Source: an uncultured Methylobacter sp. (GTDB lineage: Bacteria > Pseudomonadota > Gammaproteobacteria > Methylococcales > Methylomonadaceae). Taken from it: a stretch of DNA of 34,817 nucleotides. The notes under the pieces are model-generated. The model saw only the letters and a program-made list of their open reading frames with translations, did not search any database and was not told the origin of the DNA. Position 1 is the first letter of the stretch. The number at the start of each line of letters is the position of its first letter. The DNA lies in the NCBI GenBank assembly GCA_903832775.1, contig CAILCX010000212.1, positions 1-34,817 of the forward strand, written 5' to 3'. Positions 22,415 to 31,503 of this stretch are shown here, piece after piece. Made by a program: the position numbers and the translations under genes.

Positions 22415-23338
22415 ATGACCATCCTCCAAGTTGCTGTAGGCGTTATAAAAAATTTCGAAGGGAAAATTCTAATTTCCCGACGTCATGAGTCTTCCCATCA
22501 AGGTGGTTTGTGGGAGTTTCCCGGCGGCAAGATTCGAGCATTGGAAACCCCAGAGTTTGCCTTGGCGAGGGAACTGAAAGAAGAACTGAATATTACCGTG
22601 ACCTTGGCAACGCCCTTGATTACGGTCAATCATCAATACCCTGATTTGGCCGTCCAGATTAAGGTTTTTTTGGTTGATCAGTTTTTAGGTGAAGCTCAAG
22701 GTTGTGAGGGTCAGGTAATCAAATGGGTAACACCTTCCGATTTTGAACAATATGACTTTCCAGCAGCCAATCAGCCGATTATTACTGCTGCCCGCTTGCC
22801 GCCTTATTATGCGATTTTAGATAACATCGAGCCGACCTTGTTACTGTCGAATTTGCAAAAAATATTGAACATAGGCGTCAAGTTGATCCAGGCACGCTTA
22901 AAAAATTTGCCAGCAGCCGACGTTACAAAGTTTATTGAACACGCTTATCCTTTATGTGAACAGCATCAGGCGTTGTTATTAATGAATTCTGCCGTTGACT
23001 ATGCTGGAACTGTTGATGGCCTGCATTTAACCGGACGTCATTTAATGGCCCTGGAACAGCGACCTGAAAATGTCAAATTGCTTGCCGCTTCCTGCCATAA
23101 TCTTGAGCAATTAAGGCACGCGCAAAACTTGGGAGTAGATTTTGTGGTATTGGGCCCGGTTATGGCAACCAAAACTCATCCCGGAGCTTCTTCGCTAGGC
23201 TGGACGGCATTTACCGAACTTGTTGCCAGAATTAATCTTCCTGTTTACGCCTTGGGAGGAATGACAACCGATTGTCTGCCGATTGCGAGGCAGAGTGGCG
23301 GACAGGGAATAGCTGCTGTCAGGGCATTTCTGGATTGA
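22415..23338 (+). CDS. MutT Nudix hydrolase fused to a ThiE-like domain
   Basis: The product has 307 residues in two domains. Residues 1-130 are a MutT Nudix hydrolase, with the Nudix box at 38-60 (GKIRALE, then ARELKEELNI); the usual Gly near its end is Asn59. MutT removes 8-oxo-dGTP from the nucleotide pool. Residues about 130-307 resemble thiamine phosphate synthase (TMP-TENI), with LGPVMATKTHPG and LPVYALGGMTTD near the C-terminus. This fusion is known in gammaproteobacteria, and the ThiE-like half may not make thiamine phosphate. The start has only a weak ribosome binding site. It lies 98 bases after argJ and 103 bases before the Ter cluster. Confidence 0.9.
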   Translation: MTILQVAVGVIKNFEGKILISRRHESSHQGGLWEFPGGKIRALETPEFALARELKEELNITVTLATPLITVNHQYPDLAVQIKVFLVDQFLGEAQGCEGQVIKWVTPSDFEQYDFPAANQPIITAARLPPYYAILDNIEPTLLLSNLQKILNIGVKLIQARLKNLPAADVTKFIEHAYPLCEQHQALLLMNSAVDYAGTVDGLHLTGRHLMALEQRPENVKLLAASCHNLEQLRHAQNLGVDFVVLGPVMATKTHPGASSLGWTAFTELVARINLPVYALGGMTTDCLPIARQSGGQGIAAVRAFLD

Positions 23339-23441: not shown

Positions 23442-24017
23442 ATGGCTGTTTCACTTACTAAAGGCGGTAACATCAGTCTGTCCAAGACCGATCCTACCCT
23501 TAAAAATCTGATTGTCGGTCTTGGCTGGGATGCTAGACCCACTGATGGCGCGGATTTTGATCTGGATGCCAGCGCCTTTATGGTCAAAGAAGACGGTAAG
23601 GTGAGATCCGACAGTGATTTTATTTTTTACAATCAAACCAAATCTACCTGCGGCTCGATAGAGCACACCGGCGATAACCGTACCGGTGCCGGTGATGGGG
23701 ATGATGAAGCCGTTATTGTGTTGCTCGATAAAATACCCGCAGATATTCAACGCGTGGTATTTGTTGTTACTATTCATGACGCAGAAGCACGTAAACAAAA
23801 TTTCGGTCAGGTATCAAAAGCTTATGTGCGGGTGGTTAATAAAGACTCAAATAGCGAAGTTGCACGTTATGATTTAAGCGAAGACGCTTCTATTGAAACC
23901 GCGATGGTGTTCGGTGAAATCTACAAGCATGGCGCTGAATGGAAATTTAAAGCGGTAGGTCAGGGTTATGCTGGCGGCTTGGCGGCTTTGGCCCGTCAAT
24001 ATGGAATTAATATTTAA
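23442..24017 (+). CDS. TerD-family stress protein, copy 1
   Basis: The product has 191 residues, full length for TerD. The N-terminal [34 protein letters not shown] and [12 protein letters not shown] are the conserved calcium-binding blocks of the family; [16 protein letters not shown], then [14 protein letters not shown] and [17 protein letters not shown] complete it. TerD proteins bind calcium and take part in resistance to tellurite and other stress, probably at the membrane with TerC. AAGGAGG before the ATG is strong. It is the first gene of the Ter cluster. Whether it is TerD or TerE by orthology cannot be decided here. Confidence 0.94.
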
Positions 24018-24055
24018 CATCATAAAAATACTTTAATAATAATCAGGAGAGAATC

Positions 24056-24631
24056 ATGGCAGTATCACTTAGCAAGGGCGGAAACGTTAACCTTAGTAAA
24101 GAAGTACCAGGTCTGAATAAAATCGCCGTTGGTTTAGGCTGGGATGCCCGTGCAACAGATGGCGCGGCGTTTGATTTGGACGCCAGTGTATTTTTGGTCA
24201 AACTGGATGGTAAAGTTCGTTCAGATAGCGATTTTTGTTTTTACAACAACAAAGTGGCAGGCGATGGTGCCGTTCAACATATGGGCGACAACACTACCGG
24301 CGTGGGCGATGGCGATGATGAAACGGTTAAGGTTGAATTATCAAAAGTTCCCTCAGAATTGGACAAAATCGTATTTTCCGTGACCATTCATGACGCCGAA
24401 GCGCGCAAACAGAATTTTGGCCAAGTCAGTCATGCTTTTATTCGTATTATCAACGAAGATGGCGGCGCAGAGATCGCGCGTTATGATTTAAGCGAAGACG
24501 CTTCAATCGAGACGGCCATGATTTTTGGCGAGATCTATCGTGTAGGTTCAGAGTGGAAGTTTAAAGCGGTTGGCCAAGGCTTTGCCGGTGGCCTTGGGCC
24601 TTTAGCCGGTTCTTTTGGCGTTAATGTTTAA
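24056..24631 (+). CDS. TerD-family stress protein, copy 2
   Basis: The product has 191 residues, the same length as copy 1 and closely similar throughout. It has the same blocks [46 protein letters not shown] and [14 protein letters not shown] 26-base stretch is identical in both genes (23865-23890 and 24479-24504) at the same codon positions, so they arose by tandem duplication. CAGGAGAGAATC precedes the ATG; nearly the same sequence precedes terB. Calcium ligands are retained in both copies. Confidence 0.94.
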
Positions 24632-24681
24632 TTACTTTGGTCGATACACCAAGTAATTAAAAAACTATTTTTGTCTTTACC

Positions 24682-24729
24682 AATACACAAAGGGCACGAA
24701 GAAATAAATCTTCGTGCCCTTTGTGTATT
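24682..24729. repeat. perfect 21-base inverted repeat (hairpin) between terD-like genes
   Basis: Arms 24682-24702 and 24709-24729 are exact reverse complements around a six-base AATAAA loop. The stem is GC-rich in its middle (AAAGGGCACGAAG). There is no T-run after it, so it is not a classic terminator. It may be a dispersed palindromic element or an mRNA processing/attenuation structure separating two terD-like genes from the third. Confidence 0.9.
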
Positions 24730-24808
24730 TGGAACTGATATTCTTTTAAGCTTTTTGTGGCCCCCTGTTTTTGGTAAGTCTGCAAAAAAAATCATTAAGG
24801 TAATCTGT

Positions 24809-25402
24809 ATGGCTATTAATTTACAAAAAGGGCAAAAAATCTCTTTGTCCAAAGAATCCGGCGGTTCGTTGAGCCAAGTTGTAATGGGACTGGGTTGGGA
24901 TGCTAAAAAAGTCCAGGTCAGTATGTTAAAAGGCATGTTCGGCGGCGGTAAAACTGATGCTATCGATTTGGATGCTTCTTGTGTACTGTTTGACGATCAA
25001 AACAAAGTAGTTGATATCATCTATTTTGGACAGTTAAAAAGCCGTGATGGCAGTATTGTGCATACCGGCGACAACCGTTCTGGTGCGGGTGACGGAGATG
25101 ATGAGCAAATCAAGGTTGATCTGAATAATGTTCCAGAAAAGGTTAAATCACTGGTGTTTACCGTTAACTCTTTTTCCGGTCAAACGTTTAACGAAGTTGA
25201 AAATGCCTATTGCCGTATCGTTGACAGCAGCAATAATTCAGAAGTTGCCCGTTATACTTTAAGTTCGCAGGGCACGCATACCGCGCAAATCATGGCAAAA
25301 GTGTATCGTCATAATGGCGAATGGAAAATGCACGCGATTGGTGAAAATGGTGTCGGTCGAACTATTGATGCCTTGTTGCCGCAAATAGTTATCCATTTGT
25401 AG
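24809..25402 (+). CDS. TerD-family protein, divergent third copy (TerZ-like)
   Basis: The frame opens at 24671, but that start lies in the large hairpin. The ATG at 24809 has AAGG nine bases upstream and gives the family N-terminus MAINLQKGQKISLSKESGG, 197 residues in all. The conserved GLGWDAKK is followed by an insert (VSMLKGMFGGGKTD) before AIDLDASCVLFDD, as in TerZ/TerA-like paralogs, then [12 protein letters not shown]. The calcium-binding acidic residues are kept. The ATP-grasp gene starts seven bases after the stop. Confidence 0.92.
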   Translation: MAINLQKGQKISLSKESGGSLSQVVMGLGWDAKKVQVSMLKGMFGGGKTDAIDLDASCVLFDDQNKVVDIIYFGQLKSRDGSIVHTGDNRSGAGDGDDEQIKVDLNNVPEKVKSLVFTVNSFSGQTFNEVENAYCRIVDSSNNSEVARYTLSSQGTHTAQIMAKVYRHNGEWKMHAIGENGVGRTIDALLPQIVIHL

Positions 25403-25408
25403 GCATCA

Positions 25409-26431
25409 ATGAGAATTTGGTTTAACAAAACATTTTCGACCATCCACGCAGTCTTCAGAAATCTTCATCAGTCAGTTCCGGCTGGTGAAGTCACCTTGAT
25501 TTGTACTCATACTTACGCCCACGCGGCGGCCTTTTTGGCGGCCGATGAAAGTTATCTGGAACCGGCTGAACTGACAGATTACGAGTACCTTGAATGGTGC
25601 GTGGCGTTTTGCAGAGAGCATAATGTTCAGTTATTTTGGCCCGGCAAAGCAGCGGCGTTAATTGCCAAACACCATGGCTTGTTTCAGGCAGTCGGTGTAC
25701 AGGTTGTTTCGGTCGCTGATTACGACACGCTGAGTTTGTTGCATAACAAAGCAGATTTTTATACGGCGTTGCCTGTTGAAGTTGCAAAAACTATGGATTT
25801 TATTGCCGTTAATAACCGTGAGGCATTTGATAATGCAGTCGTCGAGTTATCAACACAGCATAAAGTCATCTGTGTAAAACCCGCAGTTTCGGTGTTTGGT
25901 CTGGGTTTCCGGGTTTTGGATACGCAGCGAGACAGTATTACTCAGTTGCTTAAGGGTGTGGAGTATCAGATTCCCTTGCAAGAATTAAGACACGGCATGG
26001 TTAACACGGCTGAGTTTGATACTTTGCTGGTGATGGAACATCTGGGTGGACCTGAATGGAGCGTCGATTGTGCCGGGCGGCACGGCGAGTTGCTGAGTGC
26101 CGTACAACGCAAAAAATCGCAACTGGCTGGTGGCGGGCAAGCTATTGACAATAATGCCGAGATTGACGGCATGGTGAAAAGATTGACGTTACATTACCGT
26201 CTTAACGGCTTGTTTAATATCCAGTTTAAAGAAGGTGTGAACGGCGTGCGGTTACTAGAAATCAACCCCAGACCCTCCGGTGGCTTCGGCATGGCTTGTT
26301 TGGCAGGCGCAAACCTGGCGCATATTGCCTTGCGCAGTATCAAAGGTCAGGTATTTCAGATGCCGACCATTCGTTATGGACTGAGAGTGACCGAGATTAA
26401 TACGCCGGTGGTGCTGCGGGAAATAAGCTAA
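25409..26431 (+). CDS. ATP-grasp enzyme of the Ter biosynthetic module
   Basis: The product has 340 residues. An ATP-grasp fold is indicated by the glycine-containing KPAVSVFGLGF (about 157-167) and the metal-binding LLEINPRPSGG (282-292, E284 and N286). Such enzymes join a carboxylate to an amine or thiol via an acyl phosphate. Location directly after three terD-like genes and before PRTase, HAD, StiP and lyase genes matches the ATP-grasp type linked to Ter systems. It probably makes an amide bond in an unidentified metabolite. The substrate cannot be read from the sequence. Confidence 0.87.
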   Translation: MRIWFNKTFSTIHAVFRNLHQSVPAGEVTLICTHTYAHAAAFLAADESYLEPAELTDYEYLEWCVAFCREHNVQLFWPGKAAALIAKHHGLFQAVGVQVVSVADYDTLSLLHNKADFYTALPVEVAKTMDFIAVNNREAFDNAVVELSTQHKVICVKPAVSVFGLGFRVLDTQRDSITQLLKGVEYQIPLQELRHGMVNTAEFDTLLVMEHLGGPEWSVDCAGRHGELLSAVQRKKSQLAGGGQAIDNNAEIDGMVKRLTLHYRLNGLFNIQFKEGVNGVRLLEINPRPSGGFGMACLAGANLAHIALRSIKGQVFQMPTIRYGLRVTEINTPVVLREIS

Positions 26432-26435
26432 TTGA

Positions 26436-26513
26436 GTAGGATGGGAGGAGCGATAGCGAAACCCATCTTGATTCAACCAATGTTGATGGGTTTCGTTACA
26501 CCCTCCCTACACC
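26436..26513. repeat. imperfect palindromic element in the Ter cluster
   Basis: The only gap of the enzyme block (95 bases) is filled by an imperfect palindrome. Inner arms CGAAACCCATC (26457-26467) and GATGGGTTTCG (26485-26495) are exact. Outer arms around GTAGGATGGGAGG and CCCTCCCTAC pair with interruptions. The motif GAGCGATAGCGAAACCCATC has the look of a dispersed REP-like repeat found in many proteobacteria. Confidence 0.75.
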
Positions 26514-26526
26514 GCACTTTAATTAA

Positions 26527-27729
26527 ATGCCAAATATGACTAAGACAATAACCATAAAACTGGATACAGGAACTTTGCAGCTTGATTTGGAGCCCGGACG
26601 TGTTCCGCTCAATCGCCTGCTGGGTTTTGCGGCCAGAGTCAGTAGCAAACGCAAGTTTTTGTTGGTCAGCAAAGTTTTAGGCAAGCATTATCCGGTATCG
26701 CCCAAACTGATGAGCTGGTCTTACCGAGCCTTGGCCCGCATGGTTTTGGAACATGGAGCCGGTACCGGTTCGGTTTGGATTGGCATGGCGGAAACCGCAA
26801 CCGGTTTGGGTTACGGGGTGTTTGAAGCGGGGTGTCGCGAAGGTGTGGAACAGGCATTGTTCATTCAGACTACCCGTTATCATCTTGCGGGTCTTAAGCG
26901 ACTTGAGTTTGAAGAAGCGCACAGTCACGCGACCGATTTTTTCCTGTATTATCCAGAGCAGCCGAAGCATCGAGCACAATTTTTGTCAGCTAAAACGCTG
27001 GTTTTAATCGATGATGAAATTAGTACCGGGAAAACTTTTTTACGACTGATTAAAGCCTATCAGTTAGTTAATCCGGTGCTTGAAAAAGTTTTTATCGTCA
27101 GTCTGGTTAATTTTGCGCATCCGGATGATCGTGCAACTTTGGAGAACGAAGCGGGTGTGGCAGTTGAATGGGTGTGCTTCAGACAAGGTTTACTGCAATT
27201 TGAAGACAGCCGGAACATCGCCATAGACAGCATCACTGTTAATGTTTCCGGAAATGGCGCTTGCAAGAAAGCGTTGTTGGCGTGGCCGGGCCGGGTAGGT
27301 TTGGATGCGCCGATCAGTCTGGAAGACGATGTCATTGAGCAGCTTTATAACAGCGGTTTCAGTCGCGATAAAACGCGTCCGATTTTGGTTTTGGGTACTG
27401 GTGAATGCAACGCGCCCGCTTATCTGCTGGGGCGTGAATTGGAAAGGCAGGGCTTTAAGATTAAGGTACAGAGCACCACCCGCTCACCGATTCATCAGGG
27501 CAATGCTATTGTCAGTGTGTGCCAGTTTGAAGATAACTATGACGATGGCATTCCCAATTTTATTTACAATTTAAATCCGGACGATTATCGGGATATTATT
27601 CTTTGTCATGAAACGCCTTTAGGCGCTGCATTAACTAACCGGTTGCAGGCATGGCAAGCCCTTAGCGCACGATTTGAACTTCAACCAGACACGGCTAAAC
27701 ATGCAAAGCTACATTTTTTTAGACCTTGA
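26527..27729 (+). CDS. phosphoribosyltransferase with TRSP domain, Ter-associated
   Basis: The product has 400 residues. The PRPP-binding loop TLVLIDDEISTGKT lies at 157-170 in an N-terminal PRTase domain. The C-terminal part (about 270-400) starts with RPILVLGTGECNAPAYLLGR and contains QSTTRSPIHQGNA, the TRSP sequence that names that domain. PRTases attach or remove a base on ribose 5-phosphate, here presumably building a nucleoside-like product. The ATG lacks a clear ribosome binding site; M4 is an alternative. The last 29 bases overlap the start of the HAD gene. Confidence 0.9.
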   Translation: MPNMTKTITIKLDTGTLQLDLEPGRVPLNRLLGFAARVSSKRKFLLVSKVLGKHYPVSPKLMSWSYRALARMVLEHGAGTGSVWIGMAETATGLGYGVFEAGCREGVEQALFIQTTRYHLAGLKRLEFEEAHSHATDFFLYYPEQPKHRAQFLSAKTLVLIDDEISTGKTFLRLIKAYQLVNPVLEKVFIVSLVNFAHPDDRATLENEAGVAVEWVCFRQGLLQFEDSRNIAIDSITVNVSGNGACKKALLAWPGRVGLDAPISLEDDVIEQLYNSGFSRDKTRPILVLGTGECNAPAYLLGRELERQGFKIKVQSTTRSPIHQGNAIVSVCQFEDNYDDGIPNFIYNLNPDDYRDIILCHETPLGAALTNRLQAWQALSARFELQPDTAKHAKLHFFRP

Positions 27730-28462
27730 TGACACCTTGTTTCAGACGCTGAGAAAATGTGTTCCCGGCGTCAATGATCATAACCTTGAAGTGCGGGCGT
27801 ATTTACCTGATGGCACGGCCAATTCGTTTGCTACCCACAAGCAGCAATGGTTATGGCATTGGCTGGCCAAGGGCTTCAAGATTGTGCCGGTAACGGCGCG
27901 GGATGTTCATGCTTTTGAACGGGTCAATTTGCCGTTTCAGGAAGAAGTGGTGTTAAATCATGGCGCGGTGATTTTGGATAAACAGCGAGTGGTCGATAAA
28001 GTGTGGATGGAGCAGATCATGCAAGAATTGCCCATTTATCATGACAAATTACTGGAACTGTGGGCGGAAGTTGAGCTTTATGCAAAACGTAATTCGGGTT
28101 TTAAACCCAGGTTGGTCAACGATTTTGATATAACCTGGTATGGCGTTATTAAACACAGTGACGGCACCGAAGCGGTTTTAAAAACGCTCATGGATGAAGT
28201 AATCATAGAACATCCTCATATAATTGACGGCAGTTTGTATTGGCATTTGAATGGCAATAATCTCGCGCTATTGCCAAAAATAATCAACAAAGAAAGCGCG
28301 GTTAGTTATCTGCTGGACGGCTACAAACAGCATTCGGAAGTACTGACCTTTGGCGCCGGTGACAGTAAAACCGACGCGCCGTTTATGGCTTTGTGCGATT
28401 ATGCGTTAATTCCTAAAAATACCCAGCTGTATCAAACGCTGGCTATGGCCGAAATCAGTTAA
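27701..28462 (+). CDS. HAD-superfamily phosphatase, Ter-associated
   Basis: The ATG at 27701 gives 253 residues starting MQSYIFLDLDDTLFQT; a TTG at 27674 would add nine non-conserved residues. HAD motif I is DLDDT (D8, D10) and motif IV is GAGDSKTD (D221, D225), with an inserted cap between, as in Cof/sucrose-phosphatase-like members. It probably removes a phosphate from a sugar- or nucleotide-like intermediate. It overlaps the PRTase gene by 29 bases and abuts the next gene (TAA then ATG), so translation is coupled on both sides. Confidence 0.88.
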   Translation: MQSYIFLDLDDTLFQTLRKCVPGVNDHNLEVRAYLPDGTANSFATHKQQWLWHWLAKGFKIVPVTARDVHAFERVNLPFQEEVVLNHGAVILDKQRVVDKVWMEQIMQELPIYHDKLLELWAEVELYAKRNSGFKPRLVNDFDITWYGVIKHSDGTEAVLKTLMDEVIIEHPHIIDGSLYWHLNGNNLALLPKIINKESAVSYLLDGYKQHSEVLTFGAGDSKTDAPFMALCDYALIPKNTQLYQTLAMAEIS

Positions 28463-29557
28463 ATGACTATTTCTTTCAGCGGCAGTTACACGGCAGATGA
28501 TGTAGAGTTTTTGTTAAAACCTATGGTAATTCAAGATACGCCAATTCACGAGAAGGAAGCCCTGATTCAATCCGGTAAAAAACATTATTCGCAACTGTTG
28601 ACGCACGAGTCCTTGCCGCCGGAACATTATTTGCCGCTTTTTTATCAGGCGCTGGCGTTAAATCAGAAGCGCATGGCCGAACACTTGTTGATTCTGGCAA
28701 AAAGCATTCTGGCCAATCGTCCGGACGGAATTGTTCTGGTTTCGCTGGCGCGTGCAGGAACACCGGTTGGCGTGTTGCTTAAGCATGTATTGAAGCGCTA
28801 TTTCAACATCGAGGCCAGTCATTATTCCATTTCCATCATTCGGGATGTCGGGATCGACCAAAATGCCTTGCGCCATATTTTGCAAAACCATCAGCCAAAC
28901 TCCCTGGTGTTTGTCGACGGTTGGACCGGTAAGGGCGTTATTGCGCGGCAACTGGCGGCCAGCTTGCAGGCTTTTGCCATTAGCGAGGGCATCAGCATTC
29001 CGGCTGATTTGTATGTGTTGACTGATTTATCGGGCAGCGCAGCGGTTGCCGCAAGCTCAGAAGATTATTTGATTCCCTCGTGCATCTTGAATGCCACTGT
29101 ATCGGGCTTGGTGAGTCGGTCGATTTATGATCCAGACACCACCGCTGCAACTGATTTTCATGGTTGTGTCTATTACCGGGAGTTTGAACAACACGATTTA
29201 TCCCGCTATTTTATCGATACGATCTTGTTTTGCGTTGAACAGATCTGGCGTGGAGGATTTGCGACTTTTGAAGTTTGCTCTCAGGATCGGCTACAATTAC
29301 AGGAAATATCCCAGGCATTGTTGCAGTGGATTACCGAACATTATGAGATTGCTCAGCATAATTACATCAAACCCGGCATTGGCGAAGCGACGCGTGTTTT
29401 ATTGCGACGTGAAGCACGGGTGTTGTTGTTACAGGATATTGATTGTGAAGCCACGCTACATTTGCGCTGGCTGGCTAAAGCTCGCGCCATTCCAATCGAT
29501 ATTTTTCCAGAGCTGCCTTACCGGGCAGTGGCGCTAATTAAAGAGATGCAATTATGA
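28463..29557 (+). CDS. StiP/PRTase-type protein, Ter-associated
   Basis: The product has 364 residues. SLARAGTPVG (94-103), then SHYSISIIRD and FVDGWTGKG (150-158), resemble a PRTase fold with a PRPP-type loop. The layout matches the family labelled cysteine protease StiP in some databases, which comparative work reassigned to phosphoribosyltransferases in Ter operons. I see no strong case for protease activity. It starts directly after the HAD stop and overlaps the lyase start by four bases (ATGA). Confidence 0.83.
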   Translation: MTISFSGSYTADDVEFLLKPMVIQDTPIHEKEALIQSGKKHYSQLLTHESLPPEHYLPLFYQALALNQKRMAEHLLILAKSILANRPDGIVLVSLARAGTPVGVLLKHVLKRYFNIEASHYSISIIRDVGIDQNALRHILQNHQPNSLVFVDGWTGKGVIARQLAASLQAFAISEGISIPADLYVLTDLSGSAAVAASSEDYLIPSCILNATVSGLVSRSIYDPDTTAATDFHGCVYYREFEQHDLSRYFIDTILFCVEQIWRGGFATFEVCSQDRLQLQEISQALLQWITEHYEIAQHNYIKPGIGEATRVLLRREARVLLLQDIDCEATLHLRWLAKARAIPIDIFPELPYRAVALIKEMQL

Positions 29558-30489
29558 ATACAGCACCGAAAGTATTTTCACCGTGGTGTTTAGGCGCGTC
29601 TTTATATATGCCTGCACATCGGCTAGACCTGATGGATTGCGCCAATGGCGAAAAATTGTCTGACTTGCGTTCGATGATTTTTTGTACCGAAGATGCAGTA
29701 TTGCATACTGAAGTTGATAGCAGCTTGCGTCATTTGGGCCTTTGTTTACAGGGTTTTAGGGATACGCCGCAACGCTTTCGGTTTATTCGTGCGAGAAATC
29801 CTGAAATCCTGGCGCGTTTACTGGAATTGCCTGCTATCGAAAAAATCGATGGCTTTGTACTACCCAAATTTAATACAGACGTTTTTCACGCTTACTTCGA
29901 TCAATTGCAGGGCTCTCATTTCAAAGTCATGCCGACTCTGGAAACGCGCGATGTGTTTGATGTCGGTGCAATGCGCGAGTTACGTCAGGGTTTGGCTCAG
30001 GACGGTATTTTTGAGCAAATCTTAATGCTCAGAATAGGTGGTAACGACTTGCTTAATCTTTTAGGCATCAGACGCCCCAGGCAAATGACCTTATATGAAA
30101 CTCCGTTGGGTCATGTCATTGCGCAACTGGTCACTACGTTTAAGCCTTACGGCTTTTCCTTATCGGCACCTGTGTTTGAGTATCTGGAAGATACCACCAC
30201 CCTGCAAAAGGAGATAAGACTGGATCTGGCACATGGTCTTATTGGCAAGACCGCTATTCATCCCGCGCAGATTGCGCTCATTGAAGCCATGTACGGTGTT
30301 GAACGGGAAGAATACGAAATGGCACTCAGCCTGGGTAAAAGTTCGTCACCGGCGGTGTTCAGAATGCACGATGCGATGTGTGAAGTGGCAACGCATCAGC
30401 AATGGGGGCAAGATATTTTAAATAGATGGCAATGTTACGGTGATAGGCAGTCGCTTGCCTTGCCGGCGTATACCGAAATGTCTGTTTAA
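29554..30489 (+). CDS. HpcH/CitE-like C-C bond lyase, Ter-associated
   Basis: The product has 311 residues. HFKVMPTLETRDVFDVGAM, GGNDLLNLLGIRRPRQ and the C-terminal HGLIGKTAIHPAQI are the conserved blocks of the HpcH/HpaI/CitE TIM-barrel family, which bind a divalent metal and make or break a C-C bond next to an acyl group. In Ter clusters this lyase is thought to provide or modify a carbon unit of the metabolite. The start overlaps the StiP-like gene by four bases. Confidence 0.87.
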   Translation: MNTAPKVFSPWCLGASLYMPAHRLDLMDCANGEKLSDLRSMIFCTEDAVLHTEVDSSLRHLGLCLQGFRDTPQRFRFIRARNPEILARLLELPAIEKIDGFVLPKFNTDVFHAYFDQLQGSHFKVMPTLETRDVFDVGAMRELRQGLAQDGIFEQILMLRIGGNDLLNLLGIRRPRQMTLYETPLGHVIAQLVTTFKPYGFSLSAPVFEYLEDTTTLQKEIRLDLAHGLIGKTAIHPAQIALIEAMYGVEREEYEMALSLGKSSSPAVFRMHDAMCEVATHQQWGQDILNRWQCYGDRQSLALPAYTEMSV

Positions 30490-30545
30490 AAGGCAAAACT
30501 TTAAAAAAACCAATCACAACAATACTTAATCTTCAGGAGAGCACC

Positions 30546-30998
30546 ATGAGTTTCGATAATTTTCTTAGTCAATTAAAAAGCAAAGCCAATGAATTAAAAA
30601 CAGAGGCTTTAAAGTACAAAAACAAAGATTTTTTAAATGCAGCAATGGCGGGTTCCGCTCTGGTAGCCATGGCCGATGGCAGCGTTAGTTCGGAAGAAAA
30701 ACAAAAAATGATCAAATTTATCGAAAGCCACGATGCGCTGTCGATTTTTACCACCAGTGATGTGATCAAAGCTTTTCAGGATTTTGTCGGTCAGCTTGAG
30801 TTCGATAAAGACATCGGCGAAGCCAAAGCTTTTGAAGCCTTGGGCAAGATGAAGTCAAATGAACAAGCCTCGCGTTTGTTGGTTCGCATGATCATCGGCA
30901 TTGCCTCTTCGGATGGCAATTTTGATGATAGCGAAAAGAAGGTTGCTATCAGAATCGCCAATGAACTGGCGATAGATCCGGCTGAGTTTGAGTTGTAA
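30546..30998 (+). CDS. terB: TerB-family protein
   Basis: The product has 150 residues, the usual TerB size. The two acidic helix-turn regions ADGSVSSEEKQKM (about 43-55) and SSDGNFDDSEKK (about 122-133) are the metal-binding pseudo-repeats of the TerB fold. TerB is cytosolic and binds TerC at the membrane in better-studied systems. CAGGAGAGCACC before the ATG is like the ribosome binding site of terD-like copy 2. It is the last gene of the cluster. TerC is absent from the window. Confidence 0.92.
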   Translation: MSFDNFLSQLKSKANELKTEALKYKNKDFLNAAMAGSALVAMADGSVSSEEKQKMIKFIESHDALSIFTTSDVIKAFQDFVGQLEFDKDIGEAKAFEALGKMKSNEQASRLLVRMIIGIASSDGNFDDSEKKVAIRIANELAIDPAEFEL

Positions 30999-31010: not shown

Positions 31011-31046
31011 CATAATCCGACAATTGAATCCGATTGTCGGATTATG
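31011..31046. terminator. hairpin after terB
   Basis: Arms 31011-31024 and 31033-31046 are exact 14-base reverse complements with an eight-base loop, 13 bases after the terB stop. There is no T-run, so it may be a 3' end-stabilising structure rather than an intrinsic terminator. Confidence 0.6.
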
Positions 31047-31189: not shown

Positions 31190-31503
31190 ATGTCAACTAT
31201 CACCTTTGATACGCATGTGTTTTTTAACGAACTCAAAAGCGCTGGATTCAGTGATCAACAAGCCGAGGTTATTACCAAACTGCAAAAAACAGCGGCAGCC
31301 TCTACCCTTGACCAAGCGCGTCTTGACTATGTATGATCTGGATAACTTAGTCACGAATCATTCGCTTGATGCACGTCTGCGTGAATCAGAACTTGAAAGT
31401 GAAGTGAAGTTGGCGGAATCCAAGGCTGATTTAATTCGCTGGGTAGTCGGTGCAAACTGCACTTATTTCGGCGCTACTGATTAAATTAAGTTCGCTTATT
31501 TAG
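31190..31503 (+). pseudogene. DUF1640 (CCDC90-like coiled-coil) gene broken by two frameshifts
   Basis: AAGAGGAG before ATG 31190 starts MSTITFDTHVFFNELKSAGF and runs 48 residues to a stop at 31336. The homologous continuation (DLDNLVTNHSLDARLRESEL, then KADLIRWVVGA) is in the next frame from about 31332 to 31452. The C-terminal hydrophobic QTALISALLIKLSSLI is in the third frame, ending at TAG 31503. Read in order, the three pieces reproduce a DUF1640 protein: short N-terminal motif, coiled coil and terminal membrane helix. The second break also removed a few residues of the helix. The start and ribosome binding site are intact, so decay is recent or sequencing errors are involved. Confidence 0.8.

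Follow-up and report, generated by a model that had tools for sequence, protein, structure and literature searches.

A Ter cluster of an uncultured Methylobacter sp. with a complete five-enzyme module and a TerC-family gene at another locus

Contig CAILCX010000212.1 of an uncultured Methylobacter sp. (assembly GCA_903832775.1, 3.86 Mb in 215 contigs), analysed here as a complete contig of 34,817 nt and referred to as the window, carries nine genes on the plus strand between positions 23442 and 30998, which encode three TerD-family proteins, an ATP-grasp enzyme, a PRTase_2-TRSP phosphoribosyltransferase (PRTase), a HAD phosphatase, a StiP-PELOTA protein, a C-C bond lyase and TerB. We propose that they form a chromosomal Ter stress cluster of a Methylobacter-like methanotroph with a complete five-enzyme module, that TerC is provided in trans, and that the module may make a ribosylated nucleoside-like product sensed by TerD and TerB; taken as a whole, we give this proposal about an even chance. 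It draws on the gene content, the intact conserved residues, a TerC-family gene on another contig, the co-occurrence of this gene with StiP, and the pattern of missing enzymes across genomes; the acceptors, the order of steps, the product and its sensing are inferred.

Gene families were assigned by Pfam profile searches of the window proteins (Table 1). An earlier note on this DNA, made from the sequence alone, had assigned the five enzymes to Ter-associated families, and the searches bear this out; the HAD protein, which is weak in Pfam (Hydrolase_3, 23.1 bits, cut-off 20.9), was placed by a match of 121 bits to a solved HAD phosphatase and by a profile of our own. The nine genes run in one direction as the note had placed them, with two starts corrected: the third TerD gene begins at the ATG at 24809 and not at the TTG at 24671 (its Pfam TerD match covers residues 47-235 of the longer, TTG-started open reading frame), and the HAD gene begins at the ATG at 27701. 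From the first TerD gene to terB, the intergenic spacings are 38, 177, 6, 95, -29, 0, -4 and 56 bases. Overlapping or abutting starts, which the note had seen in the enzyme block as a whole, are confined to PRTase-HAD-StiP-lyase, where the HAD gene shares 29 bases with the PRTase gene and abuts stiP; the ATP-grasp and PRTase genes are separated by a 95-base gap. The window StiP, lyase, PRTase, HAD, ATP-grasp (36 aligned rows, window protein included), TerB and second TerD protein keep every column conserved in at least 97% of aligned rows, so that nothing suggests decay. The absence of TerA and TerY, also claimed earlier, holds, on the Pfam results, for the nine genes, to which this search was confined.

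Table 1. Genes of the Ter cluster and inverted repeats in the window
Feature	Position	Strand	Details
TerD family protein 1	23442..24017	+	191 aa; Pfam TerD 292.6 bits
TerD family protein 2	24056..24631	+	191 aa; Pfam TerD 274.5 bits
TerD family protein 3	24809..25402	+	197 aa, ATG start; Pfam TerD 193.7 bits
ATP-grasp enzyme	25409..26431	+	340 aa; Pfam ATPgrasp_Ter 136.9 bits
PRTase_2-TRSP phosphoribosyltransferase	26527..27729	+	400 aa; Pfam PRTase_2 197 bits, TRSP 60 bits
HAD phosphatase	27701..28462	+	253 aa; 120.9 bits, E 6e-34 to PDB 6d3v/6d3w; 120.8 bits to 6cj0
StiP, predicted PRTase-fold domain and C-terminal PELOTA/L7Ae-like domain	28463..29557	+	364 aa; Pfam StiP 330.7 bits, PELOTA_1 89.3 bits
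CitE-like TIM-barrel C-C bond lyase	29554..30489	+	311 aa; Pfam C-C_Bond_Lyase 309.3 bits
TerB	30546..30998	+	150 aa; Pfam TerB 72.1 bits
Inverted repeat, 26-base arms, 92% complementary	24677..24734	.	in 177-base gap between TerD 2 and TerD 3; T-run absent directly after
Second inverted repeat, 11-base arms	24627-24661	.	TerD 2-TerD 3 region
Palindrome, 14-base arms	26454..26498	.	in 95-base gap between ATP-grasp and PRTase genes
Perfect inverted repeat, 14-base arms	31011..31046	.	12 bases 3' of terB; no T-run after

In the scheme that we propose, PRTase_2, StiP and HAD would be the likely core. PRTase_2-TRSP, which looks like an adenine-type transferase, would place ribose-5-phosphate onto a base-like acceptor. 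StiP, a transferase of a different kind, may resemble those that use a hydroxyl as the acceptor for ribose-5-phosphate, and the 5-phosphate would be taken off by HAD. A side group would be supplied or attached by the C-C lyase followed by the ATP-grasp ligase, whose step would depend on that of the lyase. The resulting product, a ribosylated nucleoside-like small molecule, would be sensed by the three TerD proteins and TerB, which are predicted ligand or metal sensors, and coupled to TerC, a DUF475-type membrane protein supplied from another locus.

The earlier note had described the cluster as lacking TerC, and on the contig this is so, none being encoded beside the cluster in 23 kb upstream or 3.8 kb downstream, which takes in all of contig C212, the window (C, G and L numbers are our handles for contigs, genomes and loci). 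The genome-wide search nevertheless yielded a TerC-family match, the only one in the genome, on contig C67 (338 aa; DUF475 376.7 bits, TerC 70.7 bits). This protein is 87.7% identical to the copy of Candidatus Methylobacter titanis (L007), which adjoins the same cluster divergently. Its identity to the copy of M. tundripaludum, which lies 0.9 Mb from the cluster, is 90.4%. Of the 19 genomes that hold the closest loci (L006-L024), 17 gave a TerC-family match.

Among 161 genomes of the order, evenly drawn and at least 85% complete, StiP was found in 45 and DUF475 in 77; all 45 StiP genomes carry DUF475, as against 32 of the 116 without StiP. The Fisher p values for this co-occurrence are 2.5e-19 by genome and 6.7e-5 by genus (18/18 vs 13/29), both uncorrected for shared descent. 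Both genes were seen on the same contig within about 7 kb in only seven of the 45 (G154, G111, G123, G137, G177, G056 and G080), and in the other 38 they lie far apart or on separate contigs. Six of these 38 assemblies have no more than five contigs each (G124, G047, G107, G153, G160 and G172). Local absence of TerC is therefore common and no sign of a reduced system. In two genera (g3 and g4), DUF475 is close to StiP in the StiP carriers, so that joint acquisition accounts for part of the co-occurrence.

A Ter system that is reduced and needs no TerC, the simpler form that the earlier note had seen here, would fit the lack of terC on the contig. Some TerC-free carriers may also exist, since a PF03741 search of 47 StiP genomes mostly from outside the order (G172 and G018 are inside) gave a match in 41 and none in six, namely the isolate Clostridium sp. 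ZS2-4 and five metagenome-assembled genomes. Because of the gene on C67 we reject this reading for the window genome, and each of the 45 StiP genomes sampled in the order also has such a gene; we consider the reading very unlikely. Two further arrangements of Ter proteins were observed. In G173, TerC adjoins TerD and ATP-grasp genes (L122), and L005 of the window genome (G000:C115:1-2017), close to the start of its contig, encodes one more TerD-domain protein, the fourth, which is extended at its C terminus and could be TerA-like or a multi-domain TerD.

For the two putative transferases, AlphaFold models (pLDDT 95 for StiP and 92 for PRTase_2-TRSP) were compared with the PDB by Foldseek and given a second look by VIA-align, in which rows within 1 Z were taken as ties. 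Residues 23-222 of PRTase_2 are closest to adenine PRTases (6fci_B, Z 12.0, 172 aligned residues, 2.8 Å), and D162, D163, E164, G168 and T170 are present in 33 of 33 aligned rows. The best VIA-align row for StiP was 8a0c_A (Z 13.0, 200 aligned, 3.7 Å, 9% identity, chain residues 639-964), followed by 8a0m_D (Z 11.4, 228 aligned, 4.9 Å), PyrR (10.7) and 6-oxopurine PRTases (9-10). The invariant residues of StiP include the PRTase-like loops S94-R97-G99-P101 and D152-GWTGKG158. The predicted structures support StiP and PRTase_2 as putative transferases that use phosphoribosyl pyrophosphate (PRPP). In a capsule polymerase of the Bcs3 type, a domain named CriT (residues 599-1036) is described as using PRPP to put ribofuranose-5-phosphate on a hydroxyl; a HAD domain, CrpP, subsequently removes the phosphate (PMC10299916). 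A second paper gives the same two-step logic for glycan phosphoribosyltransferases. By analogy, it is plausible that StiP and HAD form a PRPP transferase/phosphatase pair of the capsule-enzyme type.

The name of StiP in Pfam and RefSeq is that of a cysteine protease, which would give the block a proteolytic step, and Cys235, which lies close to the invariant His233, occurs in 41 of 53 StiP sequences. This is the best Cys column; no cysteine is invariant in the 53 sequences, whereas the PRTase-like loops are, the model has a PRTase fold, and our literature search found no paper on protease activity of StiP. The Pfam name is not supported, and we regard a protease as extremely unlikely.

A further possibility concerns the C-terminal PELOTA_1 domain of StiP, which matches L7Ae-type RNA-binding proteins (best E 4e-4) and in which K303, G305, E308, R311 and R315 are conserved in at least 97% of 73 aligned sequences. 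The core trio might thus modify RNA: the L7Ae-like domain would bind a structured RNA, StiP would place ribose-5-phosphate onto one of the hydroxyls of this RNA, and HAD would trim the phosphate. L7Ae-like domains can have other roles, and StiP has G where the RNA-binding motif usually has N; we hold this reading to be unlikely. Its broader form is similarly unlikely: PRPP-dependent RNA ribosylation, rather than a small-molecule pathway, would be the heart of the Ter module, PRTase_2 would prepare or read a base, the lyase and ATP-grasp would decorate the product in richer versions, and TerD, TerB and TerC would couple the modification to metal or phage stress.

The HAD phosphatase has solved relatives in Pseudomonas aeruginosa. 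It is 36% identical to PDB 6d3v over 242 aligned columns, and the printed stretch of 6d3v is in turn 93.7% identical (224/239) to the HAD gene of the P. aeruginosa plasmid pWTJH17. That gene bears the annotation 'hypothetical protein' and is flanked by PRTase and StiP genes within a ter module, which also holds ATP-grasp, lyase, TerD, TerB and TerC. In the P. aeruginosa plasmid ter module, a trypsin-like peptidase gene is found between the ATP-grasp and PRTase genes (L134:5888-7027). The entries 6cj0, 6d3v and 6d3w were deposited as trehalose phosphatase, and 6cj0/6d3v are presumably the enzyme called extrachromosomal trehalose-6-phosphate phosphatase. An enzyme of P. aeruginosa under that name was assayed as such (PMC6838324), so that HAD could be a true trehalose-6-phosphate phosphatase and the module could make a trehalose-like protectant. 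The pWTJH17 counterpart speaks against this, as it is placed between PRTase and StiP genes in a 19 kb stretch that has no annotated trehalose synthase, and we consider it very unlikely; the 80 loci surveyed below were picked for StiP and are uninformative on other contexts of such HAD proteins. In one search of an open-access library, no publication linking the trehalose-6-phosphate phosphatase with the plasmid ter module was found among the papers listed.

Neighbourhoods were taken from the best 80 named StiP loci of a longer list and scanned with profiles from the gene clusters of these loci, fragments below 70% of the median length being dropped from the profiles. Enzymes were then surveyed in the 45 StiP genomes of the order and in 46 from the named loci, with L006-L022 and 17 short or near-duplicate loci omitted; G150 and G018, which share the same coordinates, are one genome present in both sets, giving n = 90. 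In the order, the lyase was strong (>285 bits) in 42/45 genomes, with only weak partial matches in G111, G123 and G172, and ATP-grasp was strong (>100 bits) in 39/45, missing in the same three and in G056, G080 and G157, the module of the last being on a 4.9 kb contig. Among the 46 named-locus genomes, the lyase was strong (>260 bits) in 44, the exceptions being Bradyrhizobium G210 and Mesorhizobium G223, whose matches came to only 46 and 57 bits, and ATP-grasp reached at least 65 bits in 29, two frames of more than 1000 aa at 46 bits being uncounted. Taken together, ATP-grasp is present in 67 of 85 lyase-plus genomes vs none of five lyase-minus genomes (p 7.7e-4, a generous value given that the five represent about four lineages). 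Two doubtful ATP-grasp matches were counted as positive, in G150, where the match of 102 bits is surrounded by unrelated genes, and in G214, where a 65-bit match lies on a different contig; dropping either leaves 0/5 in the lyase-minus class.

PRTase_2 is strong in 57 of the 58 StiP genomes checked of the 90, the exception being G172, which has only a weak match 132 kb from StiP; HAD presence was judged within loci only. The clear lyase-free cases are a single Methylococcales genus and a phage. In the genus (G111 and G123), StiP and PRTase_2 are present with no strong lyase or ATP-grasp match genome-wide, and the G123 locus (L128) holds TerC, TerD, PRTase, HAD, StiP and TerB together, L021 being similar. 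In Acinetobacter phage ME3, PRTase, HAD and StiP lie in a row; the phage record gave no match to the window lyase, and no ATP-grasp was found in a 17 kb stretch, the only part searched for it. A Ter system with PRTase and HAD in this phage has already been published (PMC7824862).

Several results weigh against our proposal. The evidence for the core trio comes mostly from a single genus and a single phage. In both lyase-minus Rhizobiales loci, lyase remnants lie 3' of StiP: six of 72 lyase queries matched at L070 and nine of 72 at L085, both with a best E near 1e-4, and 52 of 72 at the related case L138 (E 3e-8), a Bradyrhizobium plasmid on which the remnant is also annotated and insertion sequences are nearby. 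The two lyase-minus genomes, G210 and G223, have no TerD match either, so that their modules are probably decayed; a core trio independent of Ter, suggested by their PRTase, HAD and StiP genes, was rejected in favour of this explanation. These remnants reduced our confidence in the proposal. As for StiP, the best Foldseek rows were purine PRTases (1dqn, E 6e-5), 8a0c was not among the best 50, and a sequence profile search of the PDB found no PRTase; in VIA-align, 8a0m_D leads PyrR by only 0.7 Z, which is a tie, and 8a0c_A leads it by about 2. The relative of HAD is published as a trehalose-6-phosphate phosphatase. DUF475 occurs without StiP in 32 genomes of the order, and eight of ten of those searched have no TerD, which means that DUF475 is not specific to Ter and has other roles.

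Other variants of the module were seen. The module is divided in some genera, where the block TerD-ATP-grasp-PRTase-HAD is apart from StiP-lyase, as in G133 (L129) and G158 (L119). Supposed short ATP-grasp remnants in L051 and L053 disappeared once the queries were trimmed to the real protein. An AIM24-family protein is encoded inside the Ter cluster in several loci of Betaproteobacteria and Chromatiales (e.g. L037:6253-6969), and at L008 between the ATP-grasp and PRTase genes. The stiP gene of G172 has no Ter surroundings; it is lined up with genes for an SCP2-domain protein, an ABC1-kinase and a radical SAM protein (L126:7349-11876). Relatives of StiP, the lyase and PRTase_2 are encoded on MT836648.1 (L139), an unannotated faecal scaffold of 15 kb deposited as phage, in which the lyase gene runs on the other strand.

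Directly upstream of the cluster, the window holds a fused Nudix and thiamine-phosphate-synthase gene (22415-23338). An upstream CDF transporter was considered as a substitute for TerC and rejected: relatives of the CDF, argJ and nudix-thiE genes are not beside the module in L006-L022 (phmmer, E 1e-3; several flanks are short), and the three look like unrelated neighbours. A defence system was likewise rejected, as PADLOC gave only weak PRTase matches. Promoter and terminator scans were near chance (19 vs 16.9 expected and 16 vs 11.7 expected, respectively), and no Rfam match at gathering scores indicated a riboswitch in the window or in 15 terC loci. The repeat 3' of terB is a candidate end of the unit, termination there being a guess, and the two gaps that bear palindromes leave room for transcript ends or starts inside the cluster. 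We take the palindrome between the ATP-grasp and PRTase genes to resemble a dispersed repeat. At 31190-31484, an ATG after AGGAG opens a 48-aa frame that ends in a stop, and a 92-aa open reading frame goes on in another frame; the arrangement resembles that of a short, frameshifted gene, presumably of the DUF1640 family.

Our analysis offers direct tests, of StiP as a PRPP transferase rather than a protease and of HAD as its partner phosphatase, and a crystal structure of a related HAD protein is already at hand under another name. PRTase-HAD-StiP can be considered a possible minimal trio, ATP-grasp a candidate dependent late step, and terC a likely partner in trans.

The Ter-linked biosynthetic module is reportedly due to Anantharaman, Iyer and Aravind in 2012, and the attribution made in the earlier note stands: the window has the same five enzyme families beside TerD and TerB, and its cluster is the module already in print. 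Unlike that module, its nine genes include no TerC, TerA or TerY, and TerC is on another contig. Later papers that cite the 2012 work describe a nucleoside-like product and an unclear link to TerC; among these, a 2021 study treats the module as a putative biosynthetic cluster and calls its connection with the TerC complex unclear (PMC8115787). New here, and to be tested, are the pattern of TerC in trans, the distribution of missing enzymes and the interpretation of StiP and HAD.

Two enterobacterial plasmids of the IncHI2A and IncHI1B types carry ter loci with the same order of ATP-grasp, PRTase, HAD, StiP and lyase genes; their HAD proteins are annotated as 'hypothetical' and score 242 and 236 bits with our HAD profile. 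In contrast to the window, these plasmids have divergent TerB, TerC and TerD-family genes, VWA genes and a TerY-C/PP2C/kinase set, and the window cluster has no TerC, VWA gene or TerY-C/PP2C/kinase set beside it. Of 72,556 plasmid records, 2567 contain relatives of StiP, and the order PRTase-HAD-StiP is also found on plasmids. The HAD protein of the P. aeruginosa 6d3v type is published in trehalose metabolism, and its 94%-identical counterpart sits in the ter module of pWTJH17. Compared with the Bcs3-type enzyme, the StiP model aligns to residues 639-964 of 8a0c, inside CriT, and the HAD gene abuts stiP; on the other side, no sequence similarity was found, the window proteins are separate, StiP has an L7Ae-like domain, and there is no polymerase partner among the nine genes.

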